In this document: positions 6,584 to 54,840 of the stretch, one piece after another
How the letters are laid out: each line of letters opens with the position of its first letter
Numbering within the stretch: position 1 is the first letter of the stretch
NCBI RefSeq assembly: GCF_000380335.1
Contig: NC_021149.1
Span: 4,020,501-4,084,500, forward strand
Direction: 5' to 3'
DNA: 64,000 nt
DNA from: Azotobacter vinelandii CA
GTDB taxonomy: Bacteria > Pseudomonadota > Gammaproteobacteria > Pseudomonadales > Pseudomonadaceae
Program-made: the position numbers and the translations under genes
The notes under the pieces: generated by a model
The model's database searches: none
What the model saw: only the letters and a program-made list of their open reading frames with translations
What the model was told of the DNA's origin: nothing

Positions 6584-7456
6584 ATGCGCCACCGTTCCGC
6601 CCTGCTCGCCCTGCACCTGGGCGCCCTGTTCTTCGGCCTGTCCGGCATCTTCGGCAAGCTGGCCCTGGCCACGCCGGCGGTGATCGTGTTCGGCCGCGCG
6701 CTGTTCGCCGTGGCCGCCCTGCTGCCCTTCGCCCGCCCGGATACGGACTACCGCTCCCCCGGCTGGCGGCGTCGCCTGGCGCTGGCCGGCGCCGGCCTGC
6801 TGCTGGGCGGGCACTGGTGGAGCTTCTTCGTCGCGGTGAAGGTGTCCGGCGTGGCGCTGGCCACCCTGGGCTTCGCCAGCTTCCCGGCCTTCACCGTGCT
6901 GCTGGAGGGACTGCTGTTCCGCGAACGGGTGCGCGCGGCCGAATGGGGCGTGGTCGCGCTGGTCAGCCTCGGGCTGGTGCTGGTCGGCCCGAATTTCGAC
7001 TTCGCCAGCCAAACCACTCCCGGTCTCGCCTGGGCAGTGCTTTCGGGCCTGCTGTTCGCCCTGCTGTCGGTGTCCAACCGCGCCATCACCCCTGGCGTGA
7101 AACCGGCACAGGCCGCGCTCTGGCAGAACCTCGCCATCCTCGTCTGCGGCCTGCCGCCGGCCTGGCCGCATCTGCCCGCCGCAAGCGCCCTCGACTGGCT
7201 ATGGATCGCCCTGCTCGGCTTGCTCTGCACGGCCCTGGCGCACAGCCTGTTCGTCGCCAGCCTGCGCGTGCTCAACGCGCGCAGCGCCTCGGTGGTGTTC
7301 GCCCTGGAACCGGTCTACGGCATCCTCTTCGCCTGGTGGCTGTTCGACGAACGCCCCGGAGCGCGGATGCTCGCCGGCGGCGCGTTGATCCTGCTGGCCA
7401 CGCTGCTTTCCGCGCGCCTGAGCCGGCATGCCCCGCGGGCCGACGATCGCGAATGA
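6584..7456 (+). CDS. EamA/DMT-family transporter
   Basis: This 290-residue inner-membrane protein shows two EamA repeats and about ten hydrophobic segments, from ALLALHLGALFFGLSGIFGKL at the N terminus to GGALILLATLLSARL near the C terminus. Family members export amino acids or other metabolites; the substrate is unknown here. It starts 78 bases after the dehydrogenase gene on the same strand, so co-transcription is plausible. Confidence 0.88.
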   Translation: MRHRSALLALHLGALFFGLSGIFGKLALATPAVIVFGRALFAVAALLPFARPDTDYRSPGWRRRLALAGAGLLLGGHWWSFFVAVKVSGVALATLGFASFPAFTVLLEGLLFRERVRAAEWGVVALVSLGLVLVGPNFDFASQTTPGLAWAVLSGLLFALLSVSNRAITPGVKPAQAALWQNLAILVCGLPPAWPHLPAASALDWLWIALLGLLCTALAHSLFVASLRVLNARSASVVFALEPVYGILFAWWLFDERPGARMLAGGALILLATLLSARLSRHAPRADDRE

Positions 7457-16050: not shown

Positions 16051-16270
16051 GTGCAGGAGCGGACTCATCCGCGACCGACCCAACCGCCGAGTCGCCGCGC
16101 CCTTGGCGCGGGTCGCGAATAAATTCGCTCCCACAGGGAGGAACACGACGGTCCGGCGCGATGGCCGCTTTTCGTGGAGCGGATTCATCCGCGACCTGCC
16201 GCGAGGCGACGGCCGTAGGGTGGATGGACGAAGCCATCCACCACGCTATCGCCAGCAAGCCGGCTCCTAC
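16051..16270. repeat. cluster of REP-like palindromic repeats
   Basis: The gap after the methyltransferase holds several Pseudomonas-type REP units. One in direct orientation is at 16051-16077 (GGAGCGGACTCATCCGCGACC), an inverted one at 16111-16135 and another direct one at 16174-16200. A 9-bp hairpin (GGTGGATGG/CCATCCACC) lies near 16219-16242, and 16251-16270 ends in GCCGGCTCCTAC. Such BIME-like clusters mark intergenic sites of RAYT-related REPs. They also separate this gene from the converging NifD-like operon. Confidence 0.75.
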
Positions 16271-17661
16271 GGATCATTCGGCCCCGCCGGGCGCGAGCCG
16301 GACTCGCCCCAGGGAGGAATGCACTTGCGCAGCGGGCTGTCGAACAGCCGCTGCAGCAACCGCGCCAGGCGTTCCGTGCCGGCGAAGCCGATGGCGGTGC
16401 GATTCAGTTCGGCGCGCGCCTGGTCGTCCAGCACGGCATATCCCCGCCGGCGCCAGAGAGGGCCGTCCTGGCCCAGGCCGTCGAGCAGGTCCGGGCGGGC
16501 CCGCGCCAGCAGCGCGTCCACCTGTTCGGGAGACATTTCCTGGTAGCGCAGCGGCCGTTCCGGCAACCGCCAGCGCCCGTCGGCCTCCGGCCAGCCCTGC
16601 AGCGCGCTGCCGACGCGGATGCCCGCCTCGGCGAACGCCTGCGCGTCCCGTGGCCGCACGGGTGCCAGCGACAGGTAGAGCCTGCCGGCCAGTCGCTCGC
16701 GGCAGGCGTCCAGGCGCGCCCGCGCCTCCCCGGCCTGGCTGGCGATCAGGGCTTCGGCGGCCGCCCTCACCCCGTCGTCGAAATGCGCGGCGATGGCCCG
16801 CAGGCTGGCGGCGCTGGCGCCGGGGCCGAGAAAGTCCGCTTCGAGCCAGGGCTGGCCGGTTCGCCGGCACAGCAGTTTGACCCAGTACTCCATGTCGATG
16901 CCGACGACCAGCCGGCTGTCGCCGAGCCGGGCGATGCTTCGCCGGCTGCCGCCGCCCGGCCAGCGGGCGACCACGTCGAGACCGATGCTTTCCAGCAGGC
17001 GGACGATACCGCGCCAGGCGCCGTCCATTTCCCGGCAGAACAGAGTCACCGCGCGGGCAGCGGGAGCGGCCGACGGCCTCGCCCAGTCCCGCCAAGTGTC
17101 GGCGATGGTCGCGTGGGTGTCGCCGATCCCCTCGCCACGGCGAAAGCCGGCGCAGTGCACGGCCACCACCGGCGTGCCGAGCCGCTCCTGCTGCCGGCGG
17201 GCGACGCTGCCGATATCGTCGCCGATCAGCGCGACGGGACAGGTGGACAGCAGCGTCATGCCGCGCTGCAGGGGAAACAGCCGCGCCGCCTCGCGAATGG
17301 CCAGAGCCAGCTTGGGCTCGCCGCCGAACACCACGTCCCGCTCCAGGAAATCGGTGCACAGATTGAGGCCGGAAAACCGCCCGAGCCCTTCGGGCCCCGG
17401 CGTCGCGGGGCGATTGGCCTGGGCGTAGACCCCGCAACCGACCGGCCCGTGGGTGATGTGCAGCAGATCGCGCACGGGCGCCCAGAGGGTCGCGGTCTGG
17501 CCGCCGTAGAGACAGTGGCCGATGGCCTGGCGGCCGGTCTGCATCCGGTTCAGGCCGCGGTTCCAGGGCGGCAGGTCGAAGGGCGGGCAGCCCGCCGCCA
17601 GGGGCGGATAGCGGGTGCCCTGGCGGTGCAGTTTTTCCTTGGGCGGCAGGGTGTCGTTCAT
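16267..17661 (-). CDS. orphan NifD-like protein (nitrogenase component 1 family)
   Basis: This 464-residue protein aligns by eye with nitrogenase alpha subunits through most of its length. Landmarks are HITHGPVGCG (70-77), FLERDVVFGG, STCPVALIGDDIGSV, HCAGFR, FLGPGASAASLRAIAAHFD and the terminal CIPPW. The three P-cluster cysteine positions are kept (Cys50, Cys76, Cys141), as are the residues matching alpha-Arg96 (Arg84) and alpha-His195 (His183). The FeMo-cofactor ligands are gone: alpha-Cys275 aligns with Val253/Gly254 and no His matches alpha-His442 (around 411-416). No nifK or nifH lies nearby. It is the last gene of a three-gene operon, starting 1 base after the binding-protein stop. A metal-cluster protein that handles an imported metal chelate is the best guess; dinitrogen reduction is very unlikely. 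Confidence 0.85.
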   Translation of the reverse strand: MNDTLPPKEKLHRQGTRYPPLAAGCPPFDLPPWNRGLNRMQTGRQAIGHCLYGGQTATLWAPVRDLLHITHGPVGCGVYAQANRPATPGPEGLGRFSGLNLCTDFLERDVVFGGEPKLALAIREAARLFPLQRGMTLLSTCPVALIGDDIGSVARRQQERLGTPVVAVHCAGFRRGEGIGDTHATIADTWRDWARPSAAPAARAVTLFCREMDGAWRGIVRLLESIGLDVVARWPGGGSRRSIARLGDSRLVVGIDMEYWVKLLCRRTGQPWLEADFLGPGASAASLRAIAAHFDDGVRAAAEALIASQAGEARARLDACRERLAGRLYLSLAPVRPRDAQAFAEAGIRVGSALQGWPEADGRWRLPERPLRYQEMSPEQVDALLARARPDLLDGLGQDGPLWRRRGYAVLDDQARAELNRTAIGFAGTERLARLLQRLFDSPLRKCIPPWGESGSRPAGPNDP

Positions 17662-17662
17662 C

Positions 17663-18736
17663 TCAGTTGTTCATGTCGTTGTGGCGCCGGCCGTCGGGTC
17701 CCTTGCCTTGCAGCATGAGGTCCAGTTCCCGGTCGGAGAGCGCGTAGCGGTAGAAGCGCCGGTAGTAGTCGCGGATTTCCCGGCGCAGGTCGAGATCGGC
17801 GAACAGTTGCGGGTAGAGCTCCTTGGCCAGGTAGAGCATCAGCAGCACGCCTTCGCTGGAGCCGTCCCAGTAGAAGACCCCTTCCGGCAACTCGCGGACC
17901 CGGCCGTTGCGCACGGCCGCGATCCGGCTCCAGCGCGGGTCCTCGGTGACCAGACGCGCGGAATACTGGCGACCGATGTTGACGACCTGCGGATTCCATT
18001 CCAGCAGCGCCTCCAGCGACACCCCGCCGCGGCCCGCCAGCGGGGTGCGGCCGATCACCATGTCGGCGCCGGCGATCACTCCGTACCAGTAGGTGTTGGA
18101 GGTGGTTCCCTGGGTATCGGTGGCCGCCGGGCCGCGCACGTGGAACAGCCTGATCCGCTCGGCGGCGGGAATCCGCGCGGTGCGCTCACGGACCATGGCC
18201 ACCATCCGCAGGTGATAGGCGCACCACTCCTCGGCCCGCGCCGCGTAGTCCGGCCCCAGCACCTGGCCGTAGAGGCGCAGCATGCGGTTGCGCGACTCGA
18301 CGAAAGCCTCGACGCTGTCGATGGGCCCCACCGGCTGCGACACCAGCGTCGGAATCCCCATGTCGGCCAGGCGCTTGATCTTGCCCGGCGCCGGATAGCC
18401 GTAGGTATGGAACGCCACGTCCACGTGCCGGCGCAGCAGCTCCTCGGTATCCGGGTCGGAACCCAGTTGCTGGATGCGCGCGACGGCGGGGTTGGTCTGC
18501 AGCATCCAGGGGGCGTTGGTGCGGATCATCATGGCGATCCGCTCGCTGGCCCCCAGCAGGAACAGCCGCTCGTAGCAGAGCACCTCCAGGCAGGCGATGG
18601 ACTCGACGCGTTCGGCGACCGGCACGCTGCGGCCGGCCATGTCCGTCACCTGCCGGCGCCCGTCCGGCACGGGCGCCGCCGGCTCGTCGCAGGCGCAGAG
18701 CAGCAGGGTCGCGGTCAGCAGGGCTATGACCTTCAT
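17663..18736 (-). CDS. periplasmic metal-chelate-binding lipoprotein (TroA/FecB/MolA-type fold)
   Basis: This 357-residue protein has a lipoprotein signal (MKVIALLTATLLLCAC) and the class III periplasmic binding protein pattern: RQVTDMAGRSVPVAERVESIA at the N terminus, a central helix region and SLEALLEWNPQVVNIG near the second lobe. Relatives bind ferric siderophores, cobalamin, heme or molybdate. It starts 5 bases after the TonB-receptor stop and ends just before the NifD-like start, so the three are co-transcribed. No permease or ATPase gene is present here, so import across the inner membrane must rely on another locus or on a different mechanism. Confidence 0.85.
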   Translation of the reverse strand: MKVIALLTATLLLCACDEPAAPVPDGRRQVTDMAGRSVPVAERVESIACLEVLCYERLFLLGASERIAMMIRTNAPWMLQTNPAVARIQQLGSDPDTEELLRRHVDVAFHTYGYPAPGKIKRLADMGIPTLVSQPVGPIDSVEAFVESRNRMLRLYGQVLGPDYAARAEEWCAYHLRMVAMVRERTARIPAAERIRLFHVRGPAATDTQGTTSNTYWYGVIAGADMVIGRTPLAGRGGVSLEALLEWNPQVVNIGRQYSARLVTEDPRWSRIAAVRNGRVRELPEGVFYWDGSSEGVLLMLYLAKELYPQLFADLDLRREIRDYYRRFYRYALSDRELDLMLQGKGPDGRRHNDMNN

Positions 18737-18741
18737 GCGCG

Positions 18742-20904
18742 TCACCAGTCCAGCTTGGCGGTCAGCGAGGTCATCCGCGGCGCCCCCAGCAGCAGGCCGT
18801 CGCCGGAGCGGTAGTAGCTCCAGTAGTCCTTGTCGAACAGGTTGTTGACGAACAGGTTGAGCGTCAGTTTGTGGCCGGCGAGTTCCGGCTCGTAGCGCAG
18901 GCCGAGGTCGTAGGTGGTGGCGCCGTGCAGGTAGTCGGTGTTGGCCGCGTCCACCGGCCGCCGGCCGGAGTAGTTGGCCGCGCCGCTCAGGGTCACGTCG
19001 GGCAGGCGCAGGCGGCTCAGGTTGTATTCCATGTAGAGGCGCCCCTGGCGTTCCGGGACGTTGACCGGGATGTTGCCTTCCAGGGACTTGTTGTTTCTGG
19101 ACTCGGTGACTTCCGCGGTCATGAAGGTGTAGCCGCCGACCAGGGTCAGGTTGTCGGTGAGCTTGCCGGTGGCGGTGAGCTCGACGCCCTTGTGGACTTC
19201 CCGGCCGTCCTGCTTGTAGGTGTTGTCCGACGGATCGGTGTACTCGTTGACCTTGTCGATGTGGAACAGCGCCAGCGCCAGGTCCATGCGCCCCAGGGTG
19301 GCCTTGGCGCCGAGCTCCCACTGCCGGCTGACGCTCGGCGAGAGGATCTCGTAGGCGTTGGCGGCGGTCGCCGGCGCCGAGCCGCCGTTGGTCAGGCCCT
19401 CCATGTAGGTCAGGTAGGTGGTGACCTCCCGTGCGGGCTTGTAGATCAGCGAATAGCTCGGCGTGGTCTTGCGCTGGGTGTAGCTGGCGGTGCCCAGGCT
19501 GGTGCCGCCGCCGGAAACGTTCTGGCGGATTTCCGCGCGGTTGAAGCCGATCACCGCCGACCAGGCATCGTTGAATTCGATGCGGTCGCCGATCACCCAG
19601 TTGCGGTAGAACTGGTGGTAATAGACGTTGGTCTGGCCGATGGTCTGGCTGGGACGGGCATAGTCGGTCGGCGAATCGATGTTGGAGGTGCCCAGCAGCG
19701 TGGTCACGTCGTTGCCGCGGGTATAGCGGTATTTGTGACCGGTGAAGCCCATGGTCAGCTTGTGCCGGATGGCGCCGGTGGCGAAGTTGGCGTCCAGCAG
19801 GGCGAAGCCCGAATAGGTGCGCTCGGTCTGCCGGGTGCTGCCCCGCGCCGATTCGCTGTAGTTGCCCTCATTGTCGGTCAGGGTGGCCGTCGTGTACTGG
19901 TAGGAACGCCACATGTTGCCGTAGCGGAAGGACGAGCGCAGGGTGAAGACGTCGTTCAGCGACGACTCGAAACCGACCCCCACCTGGCTCTTGTGCGACT
20001 TGTTGTAGGTCCAGTCCTGGCCGTACTGGGTTTCCGCGTCGAAGTGCCGGGCCGAAGGCACATTGACGCCGGACGCGGGGTTCACGTTGATGTAGGTCTG
20101 CAGGCCGCGCATGTCCAGGTCCTGGTACCAGCCGTCGGCGAACAGACGGGTATCCGGCGTCAACCGGTAGGTCAGCACGGCGGACATCAGGCTGCGCTCC
20201 TGATGACTGCCCTCGACGTAGGTGCTGCCGCTCTCGTCGTAGAGGTTGACCCGATAGGCCAGGCGGCCTTCGGGGTCGACGGGGCCGCCCAGGTCGGCGT
20301 GCTGGTAGTCCATCCCGCCGCCGTAGCGGCCCAGCGCCAGGCTGGCCTGGCGCGTGGCGGTCGGCTGCTTGCTGACGTAGTTGAGCGAGCCGCCCAGCGA
20401 CGAGAAACCGTAGAGGAAGCTGGACAGGCCGTTGAGCACCTCGATGCGCTCGACGTTCTCCAGCGGCACGAAGGTGAAGCTGCGATCCACCACGCCATCG
20501 CGGAAATCGCCCTGGTCGCCGGCGGTGAAACCGCGCACCATCACCCGCGACAGGCCGCTGTAGGTGTTGGACTCCATCAGGGTGGCCACGGTCGGGTTGG
20601 TCTTCAGGGCCTGCGAGACCGTGTGGGCGCCGCGGTTCTCGAACAACTCGCCCGAGGTGACGTTCAGCGAATAAGGAGTATCCCTGAGCGGCACCTTGCC
20701 CAGCGGGCCGACCCGCGCGGCCTCGTGGCGATAGCCGCTTTCCGCGCTGCCCTCGCTTTCTTCCTGCCAGTCCTCGACCTGCAGCGTGCCCAACTCCACT
20801 TCCGAGCCCTGCTCTTCCTCGCCCACCTCGGCATGCGCCAGCGGCAGGACGAGGCTGACGATCACCAACGGAACCCACCGACCCGGATGCGTGACTCTCG
20901 GCAT
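18742..20904 (-). CDS. TonB-dependent outer-membrane receptor
   Basis: This 720-residue receptor has a signal peptide (to about residue 25, VLPLAHA), a plug domain (RDTPYSLNVTSGELFENRG, RVMVRGFTAGDQ, ERIEVLNGLSSFLYG) and a 22-strand barrel ending in the aromatic C terminus TAKLDW. It resembles siderophore receptors of the FhuA/FpvA type but has no N-terminal signalling (STN) domain, so it is not coupled to a FecR/FecI pair. The ATG at 20904 has GAGGGG upstream. As first gene of the operon, it likely imports the chelate used by the next two products. No Fur box is visible upstream, unlike the locus at 56 kb. Confidence 0.9.
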   Translation of the reverse strand: MPRVTHPGRWVPLVIVSLVLPLAHAEVGEEEQGSEVELGTLQVEDWQEESEGSAESGYRHEAARVGPLGKVPLRDTPYSLNVTSGELFENRGAHTVSQALKTNPTVATLMESNTYSGLSRVMVRGFTAGDQGDFRDGVVDRSFTFVPLENVERIEVLNGLSSFLYGFSSLGGSLNYVSKQPTATRQASLALGRYGGGMDYQHADLGGPVDPEGRLAYRVNLYDESGSTYVEGSHQERSLMSAVLTYRLTPDTRLFADGWYQDLDMRGLQTYINVNPASGVNVPSARHFDAETQYGQDWTYNKSHKSQVGVGFESSLNDVFTLRSSFRYGNMWRSYQYTTATLTDNEGNYSESARGSTRQTERTYSGFALLDANFATGAIRHKLTMGFTGHKYRYTRGNDVTTLLGTSNIDSPTDYARPSQTIGQTNVYYHQFYRNWVIGDRIEFNDAWSAVIGFNRAEIRQNVSGGGTSLGTASYTQRKTTPSYSLIYKPAREVTTYLTYMEGLTNGGSAPATAANAYEILSPSVSRQWELGAKATLGRMDLALALFHIDKVNEYTDPSDNTYKQDGREVHKGVELTATGKLTDNLTLVGGYTFMTAEVTESRNNKSLEGNIPVNVPERQGRLYMEYNLSRLRLPDVTLSGAANYSGRRPVDAANTDYLHGATTYDLGLRYEPELAGHKLTLNLFVNNLFDKDYWSYYRSGDGLLLGAPRMTSLTAKLDW

Positions 20905-21213
20905 CTGGTACTTCCCCTCACTGCGTACACGGATGCTCCGGAGCGGGGCATCCCACGCAGGGCAAGGAGCAAGCGCCATACCAGCGACTTTTTGCGCACC
21001 GGCGGGTGCAAACGAATTCCTTGTTACTTTTTTGTAAAAAATTTCCGCTTATCCGACGAGCACGCCGTACCAAAAAGTAAGGGTTCTCAATGGCTGTGTT
21101 CCAGGAGGTACTCGGCCGGGTGGACGGCAGGACAGGCGCATCGAGCGGCGAAAAAGTCGGGCCCGGACCGGTGGGATCGGGCGGGCGGCGGCATGCCTGC
21201 CGGTCCTCGGCCT
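20905..21213. promoter_or_regulatory. control region of the receptor/NifD-like operon
   Basis: This 309-base intergenic region is AT-rich in the middle. The heptamer ACTTTTT occurs four times: 20987-20993 and 21026-21032 on the plus strand, 21072-21078 and 21151-21157 on the minus strand. The second copy lies within TTAC-N6-GTAA (21024-21037). This arrangement suggests binding sites for a regulator, not a known Fur or ModE box. No gene is seen here. Confidence 0.45.
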
Positions 21214-22125
21214 TCACGCATTTCCCGGCTCGTCCACGGCCTCCCCCTGCGGCCCGCGCAGATGCGCGGCGAGGTAGTCGATGCAGGCGCGCACGCGCGG
21301 CGCCACATGGTGCTTGTGCGGGTAGATCGCATGCAGCGGCGCGGCCGGGATGCGGTGCCCGGCGAGGACCTGCCGCAACCGGCCGCTTCTCAGGTCGTCC
21401 GCCACGTCCCAGATGGACTTGAGCGCGATGCCGTGGCCATCCAGGGCCCACTGGTGAACCACCTCGCCATCGCTCGCCACGAGGCGCGCCGAGATGCGCA
21501 CCGTCACCTCCTCGAAACGCCAGTCCGCCTGGGACTGCTGGCCGATGAGCAGGCAATGGTGGTGCGCCAGGTCGGCGGGGCTGCGCGGCTCTCCGTGACG
21601 GCGAATGTACTCCGGCGAAGCGCACAGGACGCGATGGTTGGGCGCCAGCGGCCGGGAGATGTACGAGGAATCCTCCAGCCCGCCGAAACGCACGGCGAAA
21701 TCCATGCCGGATGCGACCAGGTCGAGCACGCTGTCGCTCAGCTCGATCTGCACCTGCAGTTCCGGGTGCAGGGCGCAGAACTCCGCCAGCAGGGGCGCGA
21801 TGCGCCGCCGCCCCAGCGATATCGGCGTGGTCACCCTCAACTGACCCGAGACGACGGCGCTCTTGCGCAGCAGTTGCTGCTCGACCTGCTCCAGGTCCGC
21901 CAGCACCTGGACGGCCCGCCGGTAGAGCAGTTCCCCCTCTTCGGTGAGCGATTGCCGCCGGGTGGTCCTCTGCAGCAGGCGAACGCCCAGGGACTCTTCC
22001 AGTTGGCGAAGTTTCCGGCTGGCCGCCGGCAGGGTGATGTGCTGGGCACGCGCCGCCGAGGACAGGGAACCCGATTCGACCACGGCCACGAACAGGCGAA
22101 GCAGACTGATGTCGTTGAGAGCCAT
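21214..22125 (-). CDS. LysR-family transcriptional regulator
   Basis: This 303-residue regulator has an N-terminal winged helix-turn-helix (LRLFVAVVESGSLSSAARAQH, then PAASRKLRQLEESLG) and a C-terminal substrate-binding domain. It is divergent from the amidohydrolase cluster, with 109 bases to the start of the aldo/keto reductase stub, so it probably controls that cluster. Relatives in this position often regulate oxidoreductase genes. The ATG at 22125 (MALNDISLLRLF) gives the normal N terminus. Confidence 0.9.
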   Translation of the reverse strand: MALNDISLLRLFVAVVESGSLSSAARAQHITLPAASRKLRQLEESLGVRLLQRTTRRQSLTEEGELLYRRAVQVLADLEQVEQQLLRKSAVVSGQLRVTTPISLGRRRIAPLLAEFCALHPELQVQIELSDSVLDLVASGMDFAVRFGGLEDSSYISRPLAPNHRVLCASPEYIRRHGEPRSPADLAHHHCLLIGQQSQADWRFEEVTVRISARLVASDGEVVHQWALDGHGIALKSIWDVADDLRSGRLRQVLAGHRIPAAPLHAIYPHKHHVAPRVRACIDYLAAHLRGPQGEAVDEPGNA

Positions 22126-22234
22126 TATTGACGAAATCTGCAAGAGTACATTAAGAATTACCATAATTTATTGATTCGGCGAATAAAATTAAACTCCGAA
22201 AAGTCACTTTCGCAGCAGAAAGAGCTTTTCGCCG

Positions 22235-32663: not shown

Positions 32664-34022
32664 TCAGAACATGCGCAGGTCGAGAGGAAACTCGAGAATC
32701 AACCGCAGCTCGTCGATGTCGGCCTCGGCGGTATGGTCGCCGTTCACCCGGTGGGTGGCCTGCATGACCCGGAAGCTCAGGTCCTTGGCCGGCCCGCTCT
32801 GCACCACGTAGCTGAGCCAGAAGTTGCGCTCCCAGTGGCGTCCGTCGCGCACCTTCTGGTAGGCGGCGTAGGCCGGCCCGACGTCGCGCCCGTCGATGTC
32901 GGTGCCGCGCACGTAACGGGCGATCAGCGTCAGTCCGGGAATGCCGAGGGCGGCGAAGTCGTAGTCGTAGCGAAACAGCCAGACGCGCTCGTTGGGGTTG
33001 TTGAAGTCGGAGACCTGGGAGTTGGTGTTCAGGAAGAAGTCCCAGGTGTGCCAGACGTAATCGAAGGGCGAGTCGTCGTCGATGCGCGTGTGGGCGATGC
33101 TGAAGGCATGCGCGCCGACGCCGATGCCGGCCTGCAGGCTCCAGGAATCGTTGTCCAGGTCGCCGAGCAGCGACTTGCCGGTGTCGCGGGTGCGGTAATA
33201 GCGGAAGGCGGCGTTGAAGCTCAGGCCCTCCCCCAGCGGCTGCCGCCAGTCGGCATAGAAGGCCGACTGGTTCCAGACGTCGTCGAGCCGGCCGTGGTGC
33301 AGGCGCAGCAGCAGGCGGTCGTCGAGGTTGTAGTCGATGCCGCCGTAGACGAAGTCGTCGGCCTCCTCGAAGCGCCCGCCGTAGGCGGTGCCCAGCGGGC
33401 CGTTGTGGGCGGTGGCGGTGCGGTCGCTGCTCGACTCCAGCTTGCCGCCCTGCAGGGTCAGGCCCTTGACCGAGGTGTTCTTGACCAGCGTGCCGCGAAA
33501 GCTCTGCGGCAGCAGGCGGATGTCGCTGGTGTTGAGCACCGGGCTGAGGGGACGGACGTCGCCGTAGCGCAGCTCGGTGTCCTCGAACAGGCGCAGCTTG
33601 AGTTCGACGTCGACCTTGCCGAATTGGTCCTTGGGCCTGCCGTCGAAGTCGTGACCGTGCCGCGGGATCAGGCCGGGACCGCCGATGCCGTCGCCGACCC
33701 GGCCGTCGCCGCCGTCCAGCTTGATGCCGTACAGGCCGCGCACGTCCAGGCCGAAGCCGAGCGGACCGGGGGTGAAGCCGGACTCGAAGGTGGCGATCAG
33801 GCCGTGCGCCCAGTCGGCGCGAAAGTGCTTGCTCTCGCCGGTCTGCGCGTTGCGGAAGCGATCGCCGTTGCGAAAGTCCTGGCTGAAGTAGAAGTTGCGG
33901 TTGAGCAACGTGAAGCTGGAGCCTTCGAAAAAACCCTCCTCGCCCAGGGCGGCGATCGGCAGGGCCAGAAGAACGGACAGGGACAGGATACGGGCTGGAT
34001 TCTTGTTGTTGTCGAAACGCAT
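32664..34022 (-). CDS. OprD-family outer-membrane porin 1
   Basis: This 452-residue porin has a signal peptide (to about residue 26, LPIAALG) and an OprD-type 18-strand barrel with FYFSQDFRNGD, TFESGFTPGPLGFGLDVRG, QSFRGTLVKNTSVKGLTLQ and a C-terminal Phe (LEFPLDLRMF). It likely admits a small hydrophilic nutrient. The porin at 39.5 kb is a close paralogue. Codons 4-8 form an A-rich AACAACAAGAA stretch fitting a Crc/Hfq site. A sigma-54 promoter with enhancer palindromes lies 320-475 bases upstream, so the gene is probably nitrogen- or inducer-controlled and subject to catabolite repression. Confidence 0.88.
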   Translation of the reverse strand: MRFDNNKNPARILSLSVLLALPIAALGEEGFFEGSSFTLLNRNFYFSQDFRNGDRFRNAQTGESKHFRADWAHGLIATFESGFTPGPLGFGLDVRGLYGIKLDGGDGRVGDGIGGPGLIPRHGHDFDGRPKDQFGKVDVELKLRLFEDTELRYGDVRPLSPVLNTSDIRLLPQSFRGTLVKNTSVKGLTLQGGKLESSSDRTATAHNGPLGTAYGGRFEEADDFVYGGIDYNLDDRLLLRLHHGRLDDVWNQSAFYADWRQPLGEGLSFNAAFRYYRTRDTGKSLLGDLDNDSWSLQAGIGVGAHAFSIAHTRIDDDSPFDYVWHTWDFFLNTNSQVSDFNNPNERVWLFRYDYDFAALGIPGLTLIARYVRGTDIDGRDVGPAYAAYQKVRDGRHWERNFWLSYVVQSGPAKDLSFRVMQATHRVNGDHTAEADIDELRLILEFPLDLRMF

Positions 34023-34283: not shown

Positions 34284-34344
34284 CTCGCACCTCTGCTTGT
34301 TGTTATTGGCTGGTGAGGCCTGCTGCTTCACGCCATTGACCGGA

Positions 34345-34359
34345 GCAAGGTCGGTGCCA
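34345..34359 (-). promoter_or_regulatory. sigma-54 (RpoN) promoter upstream of porin 1
   Basis: The minus strand reads TGGCAC-CGACC-TTGC followed by T, an almost exact match to the consensus TGGCAC-N5-TTGCW. Transcription would begin near 34333, giving a leader of about 310 nt before porin 1 that contains the small ORF at 34191-34283. Confidence 0.75.
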
Positions 34360-52360: not shown

Positions 52361-54760
52361 TCAGAAGTCCCAGCGGGTGGTCAGCATCATGTTGCGCGGT
52401 TCGCCATAGGCCTTGGTGCTGTAGAAACCGATGTTGGTGTAGTAGTACTTGTCGAACAGATTGTTGATGTTGAGGGTGGTGGAAAGGTTTTCGGTCACCT
52501 GGTAACGGCCCATGAGATTCACCAGCCAGTAGGCTTCCTGGTGGTACTGTTCCGCCGCGTAGTCCTTGGCCGGGTTGCTGACCTCCATCCAGGTGGTGCC
52601 CTGGTAGGTGGCCCCACCGCCGACGGTGAACTGGTTCAGCCGGCCGGGCAGCCGGTAGGTGGTGTAGACCTTGAACAGGTGTTCCGGCTCCTCGGTGGTG
52701 ATCTTCTTGTTGTCGTCGTCCCGGCGGATGGTCTTGTAGGTGTAGCCGGCCTGGATGTTCCAGCCCGGCGCCAGTTCGCCGGAAATCTCCGCCTCGATGC
52801 CCTTGGTCTTGGCCTTCAGGCCCTCGTAGACGTCCTGGTTGGTTTCGTAGTCGTAGCCGGCCCATTCGGGGCGGTCGTCCTCGCGGATCTCGAAGTAGGC
52901 CAGGCTGGCGTTGAGGCGCCCCTTGAACCATTCGCCCTTGATCCCGGCCTCGTAGCTGTCGCCCTCGTCGGGTTCGAGCAGGCTGCCGCTGCTGTCCTTG
53001 TAGCTGTTCGGCAGGAAGATGCTGGTGTAGCTGGCATAGAGCGACCAGGTGTCGTTCAGGTCGTAGGTGATGCCGGCGAAGGGCACCACCTTGCCGGAGT
53101 CGCGGGCGTGGCTGTCGCGGCTGAGGTGGTAGTCGGTGACGCGGCCGCCGAGGATCAGGGCGAGATCGTCGGTCGGCCTGAAGCGTGCGGTGAAATAGAG
53201 CGCCCGCTGGTTGGTGAGTTCGTCCTGGCGGGCGCTGATCGCGCCCCAGTCCGGCTCGGGAATGTTGCCGTCGGCCCTGTAGAAGTTTTCGACCAGACCG
53301 CCGTTCTCGGCGCTGTAGCCGTAGTAGGACTTGCCTTTCCAGTGGGTCCGGTAGGCGCTGGCGCCGACCACCAGTTCGTGTTCGCGCCCCAGCCACTGGA
53401 AGGGGCCGCTGGCATAGACCTCGATGGCGTGGTTGACGGTGTCGCCCCGGTACTGGCCGGCGGTCAGCGAGGTCCGGTAGCCGTTGTCCACGTCCGGGCT
53501 GCTCAGCATGGAGCCGAGCTTGGCGTCGTAGCCGTTGACCTGATAGTTGTACTGGCCCCGGCCCACCCAGCCGTTGGAGAAATTGTGCTCCAACTGGGTG
53601 AAGAAGGTCCGCGTGTACTGCTCCCAGCGGCTCCAGTCCGCCCCCGGATTGAACGAGCGGGAAACGCTGACTTCGTCGCCCTTGCTGTCGAAGATGGGCA
53701 CGCCGCCCCAACTGGAGCCCTTCGGCTTGTTGTCCTGGTAGTCGAAGCCGAGCGTCAGCAGAGTTTCCGACGTCAGGTCCATTTCCAGGATGCCGTAATA
53801 CACGCTGGTGTTGCGGTCGTAGTGGTCCTGGAAGGATTTCTTGTCCTGGTAGGCGGCCACCGCACGGCCGCGGACGCTGCCGCTGGCGTTGAGCGAGCCG
53901 CTCACGTCCCACTCGGTGCGGTAGTTGTCCCAGGAGCCGGCCTCGCCGGTGATGTGGGCCTGGAACTCGTAGGTCGGTTTCTTGCGCACGAAGTTCAGCG
54001 TCGCGCCGGCTCCGCCGGCGCCGGTGACCAGACCCGTGGCGCCCTTGAGCACCTCGATGCGGTCGTAGATCGCCATGTCGCTCAAGGTGTTGCCCGAGGA
54101 ATAGGCGGCGTTGCGCATCATCGGGATGCCGTCGTACTGAAAGTTGGTGATCGGAAAACCCCGCGAGTAGTACTGCGACCGCTCGCTGTCGAGACCGCCC
54201 ACGGTGACGCCCGGCGCGTGCTGCAGCACCTCGTCGATGTTGGTGAGGTTGAAGTCGTCCATGTGCTGGCGGGTCACCACGGTGACGGTCTGCGGCGTTT
54301 CGCGCGGGCTCAGTACCAGGCGGGTGGCGGTGGCGATGGTGCCGGGGGTGTAGGATTTCGACGTCTCGGTGATGGTGCCGAGCTGGTTGTCGACCACGGT
54401 CATGACATCCAGCCCCATTGCCTCCCCGGCGGCCTGGGCAAAAACCACGTAACTGCCGTCATCCGTTTTGCGCATCGCCAGGTTCGAGCCGCCGAGCAGG
54501 CGCTGCAGGGCCTGTTCGACGGTCAGCGACCCATGCAGCGCCGGAGCGCTGTGGCCTTCGGCGATATCGGTGGCGAACAGGATGCGCCGGCCGGTCTGTC
54601 CCGCCAGGGCGTTGAGCGCCTGGTCGAGCGCCTGGGCCGGGATGTCGAGCGTGTACGCCACTTCTTGCGCATACACGGCGGAAGCCAGCAACAGGCTGGC
54701 GGTGAGCAGGCTCAGGCGCCCCTGTTGTCGTGGATGTCGTTGCGATAGCGCCTTGCCCAT
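52361..54760 (-). CDS. FpvA/FecA-type TonB-dependent siderophore receptor with signalling domain
   Basis: This 799-residue receptor has a signal peptide (to about residue 32, ASAVYAQ) and an N-terminal STN signalling domain (YTLDIPAQALDQALNALAGQ). A plug (PRETPQTVTVVTRQHMDDFN, YSRGFPITNFQYDGIP, DRIEVLKGATGLVTG) and a barrel ending LTTRWDF follow. It imports a ferric siderophore and signals to the anti-sigma FecR-like protein encoded just upstream. The ATG at 54760 has GGGGGA 5-6 bases before it. A Fur box lies about 80 bases upstream. Confidence 0.93.
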   Translation of the reverse strand: MGKALSQRHPRQQGRLSLLTASLLLASAVYAQEVAYTLDIPAQALDQALNALAGQTGRRILFATDIAEGHSAPALHGSLTVEQALQRLLGGSNLAMRKTDDGSYVVFAQAAGEAMGLDVMTVVDNQLGTITETSKSYTPGTIATATRLVLSPRETPQTVTVVTRQHMDDFNLTNIDEVLQHAPGVTVGGLDSERSQYYSRGFPITNFQYDGIPMMRNAAYSSGNTLSDMAIYDRIEVLKGATGLVTGAGGAGATLNFVRKKPTYEFQAHITGEAGSWDNYRTEWDVSGSLNASGSVRGRAVAAYQDKKSFQDHYDRNTSVYYGILEMDLTSETLLTLGFDYQDNKPKGSSWGGVPIFDSKGDEVSVSRSFNPGADWSRWEQYTRTFFTQLEHNFSNGWVGRGQYNYQVNGYDAKLGSMLSSPDVDNGYRTSLTAGQYRGDTVNHAIEVYASGPFQWLGREHELVVGASAYRTHWKGKSYYGYSAENGGLVENFYRADGNIPEPDWGAISARQDELTNQRALYFTARFRPTDDLALILGGRVTDYHLSRDSHARDSGKVVPFAGITYDLNDTWSLYASYTSIFLPNSYKDSSGSLLEPDEGDSYEAGIKGEWFKGRLNASLAYFEIREDDRPEWAGYDYETNQDVYEGLKAKTKGIEAEISGELAPGWNIQAGYTYKTIRRDDDNKKITTEEPEHLFKVYTTYRLPGRLNQFTVGGGATYQGTTWMEVSNPAKDYAAEQYHQEAYWLVNLMGRYQVTENLSTTLNINNLFDKYYYTNIGFYSTKAYGEPRNMMLTTRWDF

Positions 54761-54840
54761 GCATTCCCCCAATCGAACGGTGAGTGAAAGGTGTTCACTG
54801 GGGTTGGCGTTTCAGCCGGAGATGATGTTGATGTGCGCTC

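Follow-up and report, generated by a model that had tools for sequence, protein, structure and literature searches.

Nitrogenase-like proteins encoded beside ABC transporters have been described in Firmicutes and Archaea, one set being NifEN-like with NifH, and the idea that they couple metal transport to cofactor assembly has already been stated (Dos Santos 2012, PMC3464626); the passages of that paper that concern them do not mention TonB receptors. In the isethionate system, a nitrogenase-like protein works together with a radical SAM enzyme, but that system has nflHDK and acts in sulfonate assimilation (PMC11423573). The closest described system is the class B operon Avin_39890 to Avin_39870 of Azotobacter vinelandii, published in 2022 as dependent on VnfA1, VnfA3, and VnfZ, driven by sigma-54, and strongly on only without molybdenum (Mo) and vanadium (V) (PMC9542535). 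The passages of that account dealing with the operon are about its regulation: they call the NifD-like gene a curiosity and give no homologues, residue analysis, or function for its product. Here, we analyzed a stretch of 64,000 nucleotides of A. vinelandii CA (contig NC_021149.1; hereafter the window) that carries an operon with a NifD-like gene. We take it to be identical to Avin_39890-Avin_39870, since the genome has a single orphan PF00148 gene and both content and order agree, with the TonB receptor first, the NifD-like gene last, a sigma-54 element, and VnfA control. The operon and its metal control are already published; the wider NifD-like family is the new part. Our search of the open-licence literature for Avin_39870, or for NifD-like together with TonB and siderophore, gave PMC9542535 alone, and the wider family was found neither in the open-licence literature searched nor in the relevant passages of PMC12811070, PMC9601215, and PMC12482762. 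Judged from its sequences, this family suggests that the nitrogenase fold has been reused to handle imported metal complexes.

Results

The A. vinelandii operon

The operon is a run of three genes:

18742..20904, minus strand: TonB-dependent siderophore receptor (PF07715, PF00593; TIGR01783), with the open reading frame (ORF) open to 20979
17663..18736, minus strand: class III substrate-binding lipoprotein of 357 amino acids (PF01497 over cut-off), with the lipobox Cys16 read from the sequence
16267..17661, minus strand: NifD-like protein of 464 amino acids (PF00148, 150.7 bits), taken as Avin_39870 by content and order

A preliminary description of this locus had placed these three genes only 5 and 1 bases apart, and both ORFs and domain models confirm it: the first gap separates the receptor ORF (18742..20979) from the lipoprotein start at 18736, and the second the lipoprotein stop, which ends at 17663, from the NifD-like start at 17661. 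The spacing is not chance, since Azomonas macrocytogenes has the same gene order and the same gaps in a different neighborhood. For the receptor, the start at 20904 is likelier than that at 20979, because a sigma-54 element (see below) would put the transcript start inside the longer ORF.

The NifD-like protein belongs to the nitrogenase component 1 superfamily (PF00148 cut-off, 28.6 bits) and falls outside NifD itself, scoring 216.4 bits against TIGR01282 (nifD), under the curated cut-off of 653.55. Among 11 PF00148 matches in the genome, it is the only one that lies outside the clusters that we read, from gene content, as nif, vnf (two), and anf. The receptor classifies as a siderophore receptor (TIGR01783, 297.6 bits; cut-off 223.5).

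Directly upstream of the receptor, on the same strand, the window has a LysR-type regulator (21214-22164, minus strand). A LysR-like ORF, read by eye, also precedes the Azomonas cassette (L099 5553-6518), and in Methylocystis parvus a LysR gene lies downstream of the cluster (L101 20945-21913). The window holds a further TonB receptor, with an N-terminal STN domain, at 52361-54772 (minus strand).

Linkage to uptake genes in two bacterial classes

We collected 13 loci with the NifD-like gene, 2 Azotobacter-type and 11 alphaproteobacterial, counting plasmid pOB3b3 once; G1655 and G1761 are near copies. At every one of them, the NifD-like gene belongs to a same-strand run that also encodes a class III binding protein and a TonB receptor, so that the conserved co-occurrence of the three families, which the preliminary description had proposed to look for, is found across two bacterial classes. 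At the two Azotobacter-type loci, the receptor gene comes first, then the binding protein, and the NifD-like gene last; at the 11 alphaproteobacterial loci, the NifD-like gene is immediately followed, on its own strand, by the receptor, and the binding protein comes next, either directly or after a radical SAM gene. Within the limits of the stretches, a radical SAM-type protein is encoded at eight of the 13 loci (8/11 alphaproteobacterial) and a FecCD transporter at nine. This linkage is not a general property of PF00148 genes. In a control of 162 short PF00148-type loci, the 11 of orphan type (nine different places) all had a receptor match, whereas the same queries matched no receptor, binding protein, or FecCD gene in the short flanks of the other 151, some of which overlap.

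The methanotroph plasmids pOB3b3 (Methylosinus trichosporium) and pMpar-1 (M. parvus) carry the NifD-like gene beside a TonB receptor, a binding protein, and a FecCD transporter. From the proteins of A. vinelandii, Azomonas, M. trichosporium, and M. parvus, we built a profile (A4) and searched with it 239 genomes from the family to which G829 belongs; G829 itself has two PF02461 (pmoA-type) genes. Matches at ten places in seven genomes scored 364-858 bits, while the others, at 277 bits or less, were read as NifD, except for a partial match in G1628 (224 bits) that was left unclassified. One of the ten places is pOB3b3 again. Single-protein searches of the class and the phylum could hardly see the alphaproteobacterial type, as ordinary NifD scores higher. 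The Methylosinus protein gave matches only up to 172 bits in 337 genomes, read as NifD. In 297 genomes of the order of G691, the best profile match (286 bits) lies within the NifD range. The family search comprised 1,999 genome searches, including repeats, and one pattern scan tuned to the Azotobacter type.

We also made side observations on these loci. One genome, G1720, which we take to be M. trichosporium OB3b, has three separate NifD-like/TonB loci (L202, L208, L210), and a crochelin-like siderophore cluster has been reported on pOB3b3 (PMC12811070). In the annotation, the TonB receptor of M. parvus is split over two consecutive coding sequences (L101 13426-15710), so it may be broken or misread.

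The Azotobacter type occurs in two of 298 genomes of the family, A. vinelandii and Azomonas macrocytogenes (G010, NZ_JACHXI010000005), and the pattern scan, tuned to this pair, found only the Azomonas record among 84,980 species genomes. Three other genomes of the genus gave no NifD-like orthologue among their PF00148-type matches, and the best match to the lipoprotein in them is 31% identical. Between A. vinelandii and Azomonas, the surroundings differ, and identity is 71% for the NifD-like protein, 81% for the lipoprotein, and 83% for the receptor. Synonymous divergence (dS) is 0.63-0.69 for the three operon genes and 0.71 for NifD, and thus the cassette seems about as old as the species split.

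One clade with an altered cofactor site

In a tree of 12 orphans and 17 other proteins (leaving out the near copy G1761), the orphans form one clade with 100/99 support, which splits into the Azotobacter pair and an alphaproteobacterial group, and which joins Mo-NifD to the exclusion of VnfD, AnfD, and NifE (99/98). A first tree had joined four very long branches; it was redone with more members, and the long-branch warning persisted. The orphan stem is long, and the tree does not separate an origin inside NifD from one beside it.

A first count of shared residues (14/48) looked strong, but its controls also showed an excess: 16/72 for the Azotobacter type and NifE, 12/44 for VnfD/AnfD with NifE, and 18/58 for the two orphan groups. 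In a stricter count on the first four members, 14 of 40 doubly derived columns had the same exclusive residue in both orphan groups, versus 14-23% in five controls (3/19, 6/37, 2/10, 5/36, 6/26), which agrees with common descent. Shared ancestry of the two groups is likely, and the NifD-like protein appears to be a relative of NifD and probably its descendant.

In NifD, Cys275 and His442 are ligands of the iron-molybdenum cofactor (FeMo-co), and Cys62, Cys88, and Cys154 are ligands of the P-cluster; pocket and docking positions are likewise given in NifD numbering. The following positions of the A. vinelandii protein were located:

17512..17514, minus strand: Cys50, at NifD Cys62 (P-cluster ligand) by alignment
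17434..17436, minus strand: Cys76, at NifD Cys88 (P-cluster ligand), invariant in 13/13
17239..17241, minus strand: Cys141, at NifD Cys154 (P-cluster ligand), Asp/Glu in the 11 alphaproteobacterial members
16591..16593, minus strand: Trp357, at the place of NifD Phe381, invariant in 13/13

The FeMo-co anchor Cys275 is replaced by a gap or another residue in all 13 members, which have a GWx4GxxRxP stretch in common. Around His442, the alignment is unstable, giving Gln in A. vinelandii and His in Azomonas in one version and Ala in both in another. The Azotobacter pair differs from NifD at 191, 229, 356, 357, 380, and 381; it retains the three P-cluster cysteines as well as Phe125, Leu158, Ile159, Asp161, and Asp162 of the Fe-protein face. 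The 11 alphaproteobacterial members keep Cys88 and Arg96, and have Asp/Glu at 154, Asp/Ser at 125, and no Asp161; Cys62 is unaligned in them, with a Cys a few columns before its place in eight.

An AlphaFold2 model of the A. vinelandii protein has a mean predicted local distance difference test score (pLDDT) of 70.9, with a poor N-terminal part. Its best Foldseek matches are NifD chains (E 4.7e-27), and each of the 50 matches listed from the PDB is a chain of the nitrogenase MoFe protein. NifD of Mo nitrogenase is the nearest relative outside the orphan clade on all three counts, sequence, tree, and fold; it differs in that the NifD-like protein lacks the Cys275 anchor, has much of the pocket replaced, and has no K/H partner gene found nearby.

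Promoter and metal control

Upstream of the receptor gene, we found two regulatory elements:

20968..20983, minus strand: sigma-54 -24/-12 element TGGTATGGCGCTTGCT, from a pattern scan with 2 matches in the window versus 0.06 expected
21098..21111, plus strand: VnfA-type site GTTC-N6-GTAC (motif from PMC9542535), 114 bp upstream of the sigma-54 element

Azomonas has counterparts at L099 6672-6687 (found with a slightly widened sigma-54 pattern) and L099 6545-6558, 113 bp apart. The VnfA-type motif is weak alone, with 2 occurrences in the window, the other one inside the receptor gene, versus 0.57 expected, and 3 in the Azomonas stretch versus 0.30. The operon has both the sigma-54 element and the VnfA motif that mark class B promoters of the VnfA regulon. 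A 14-base VnfA footprint matched at two places, with three mismatches and away from the operon; the published motif was used instead. The NifA-type site TGT-N10-ACA does not occur in the window. The promoter is not common to M. parvus, whose stretch has no sigma-54 match and a single VnfA motif, inside a gene.

The second sigma-54 match of the window (34344-34359, minus strand) lies upstream of ORF 32664-34022, a putative outer-membrane porin. Upstream of the Azomonas receptor, L099 ~6600-6619 resembles the Fur box consensus, which was not evident by eye in A. vinelandii.

Class B promoters are bound by VnfA1 and need VnfA3 and VnfZ, not AnfA; they are strongly active under Fe-only conditions and weak with V, where transcripts stay under 20% of the level in Fe-only medium (PMC9542535). 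The response to metal supply that the preliminary description had expected of the operon was thus already on record.

Four further matches to the lipoprotein in the A. vinelandii genome are 26-34% identical to it, and each 10-14 kb stretch around them has a VnfA-type motif (in L131, inside an ORF as called); the sigma-54 pattern matched in two. By order of locus tags, these four loci may be other class B operons. One of them, L129, has a receptor and a binding protein, and no FecCD match in its stretch. We also noted a methyltransferase gene between TonB receptor and transporter genes, motif-read in A. vinelandii (L130 4303-5100, a locus with a VnfA-type motif) and annotated in Paracoccus ferrooxidans (L102 3300-4124).

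Transport partners

The closest solved relatives of the A. vinelandii lipoprotein are HI_1472 (E 8.6e-18) and 4ovk (4.8e-17) with the single sequence, and 4ovk followed by HI_1472 (2.8e-18) with a two-sequence profile. HI_1472 is the likely MolA of Haemophilus influenzae, a distant relative whose homology to the lipoprotein supports the preliminary description, which had noted that class III binding proteins include MolA-type molybdate carriers; molybdate binding by the lipoprotein is putative. MolA binds molybdate and tungstate with low affinity and works with MolBC, HI1471 being molB (PMC4031551), whereas the 64-kb window and the 21-kb Azomonas stretch have no FecCD match. Elsewhere in the A. 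vinelandii genome, five FecCD matches exceed the cut-off, two of them in one open frame. The MolA likeness is not general, as the M. parvus binding protein matches 4ovk first and HI_1472 at just E 4.9e-4. The nearest solved structures to the receptor are FemA, BauA, CntO, and FoxA.

Discussion

Linkage to uptake genes in two classes argues for a role after import, and the loss of the FeMo-co anchor in a changed pocket argues for a new ligand. Our preferred reading, to which we give a probability of about 0.4, is that the NifD-like protein acts on the imported chelate, binding and processing it (in Azotobacter by reduction), and that the operon is a metal-chelate uptake unit. Its genes are strongly expressed only without Mo and V (PMC9542535). 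The TonB receptor would bring a siderophore-type complex of a metal through the outer membrane for the lipoprotein to catch in the periplasm, and a FecCD-type permease, encoded elsewhere, would carry it inward. In the cytoplasm, the NifD-like protein would bind this complex, or the metal from it, in the cavity that holds FeMo-co in NifD, and would aid release or processing. In Azotobacter, a nitrogenase Fe protein would probably supply electrons via the P-cluster cysteines that remain; a radical SAM protein may stand in for this supply in the alphaproteobacterial version. Reduction by the Fe protein would be at most half of the story, since the alphaproteobacterial type probably cannot take its electrons in the usual way. 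The gene order, its conservation, the clade, and the residue changes behind this scheme were observed directly. We infer its ligand, permease, cytoplasmic location, chelate binding, and chemistry.

Several points weigh against chelate processing. Contact of the NifD-like protein with the chelate is itself something we infer; the pocket is not wholly rebuilt, as Arg96 and His195 are retained in A. vinelandii and Azomonas; and the fold model has low confidence around the P-cluster (pLDDT below 50 at 18-61 and 76-98). The 13 stretches gave no NifH or NifK homologue at E 1e-3, and contact with the Fe protein is unlikely to be a shared mechanism, given that the 11 alphaproteobacterial members are without Phe125, Asp161, and Cys154. 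The gene also evolves faster than its operon partners, with a ratio of nonsynonymous to synonymous differences (pN/pS) of 0.41 versus 0.28 and 0.23. Diazotrophy with Mo was unaffected by its loss (Setubal 2009, cited in PMC9542535), which is uninformative because the operon is off under Mo.

An unlikely but credible alternative is tailoring of a metallophore or cofactor, in which the NifD-like protein, with the radical SAM protein in Alphaproteobacteria, would modify an imported or home-made organic ligand, possibly a tetrapyrrole, without freeing the metal. Other nitrogenase relatives reduce tetrapyrroles or sulfur compounds. A case that concerns a sulfonate has been published (PMC11423573). 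The radical SAM-type neighbors at the eight loci (L202-L205, L207-L210) all have CxxxCxxC; of five tested against Pfam, one exceeded the PF04055 cut-off, three matched under that score, and the fifth gave no hit at 1e-3. Among named models, NirJ was best for two of three proteins tested and AhbC came further down, all far below cut-off. Tailoring fits less well with a receptor of siderophore type that scores only 57 bits against the B12 model and 53 against the hemin model, or with the search by the Methylosinus radical SAM protein, which at E 1e-6 matched nothing in either the window or the Azomonas stretch.

Improbable, though likewise a serious rival, is a role without catalysis as a metal or cluster carrier or sensor: the protein would store Mo, V, or a precursor of Fe-S type until the cofactor is assembled, or would report supply to VnfA regulators. 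Its P-cluster cysteines are intact in the Azotobacter type and its gene belongs to a regulon with vnf control, whose VnfA paralogues also act at anfH; VnfZ has already been proposed to convey V status, however (PMC9542535). We searched 28 genomes for VnfD, which exceeded the model cut-off in Azomonas, in two of 20 alphaproteobacterial-family genomes without the orphan (drawn from 44 such), and in none of the seven with it, one of which is just 78% complete. The vanadium link is therefore not general, yet these carriers keep the gene in uptake loci. This also divides the interpretation given in the preliminary description: the co-occurrence, the metal response, and the MolA-like lipoprotein speak for it; a Mo or V siderophore as the ligand, and its capture, reduction, release, or sensing by the NifD-like protein, are putative. 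The VnfD result speaks against a purely Mo/V reading, and so do the alphaproteobacterial proteins, which have lost Fe-protein docking residues and have Asp/Glu for a P-cluster cysteine.

Very improbable, in our estimate, is a stand-in or accessory alpha subunit for Fe-only or V nitrogenase: the docking face and P-cluster side kept in A. vinelandii and Azomonas and the expression under Fe-only conditions (PMC9542535) would suit it, but the Cys275 anchor is gone, the three other genomes of the genus lack an orthologue, and the alphaproteobacterial members could hardly serve so. Least probable of all is a hitchhiking NifD relic with no uptake role, for although the gene evolves fast relative to its partners and to NifD (pN/pS 0.10), it is linked at 13/13 loci, has open frames in two classes, and is under purifying selection.

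Chelate processing in its fullest form is tentative and on balance doubtful: a separate branch of the nitrogenase superfamily would have become an enzyme that, after TonB-driven uptake, strips metal complexes or reduces them in the cavity once occupied by FeMo-co. Its electrons would come from the Fe protein in Azotobacter; in methanotrophs and related bacteria, a radical SAM protein would be its partner. Direct tests are feasible, as the genes are present in the tractable A. vinelandii and M. trichosporium OB3b. If true, it would show A. vinelandii scavenging scarce metals when reduced to its Fe-only nitrogenase, and the nitrogenase fold would serve metal acquisition.

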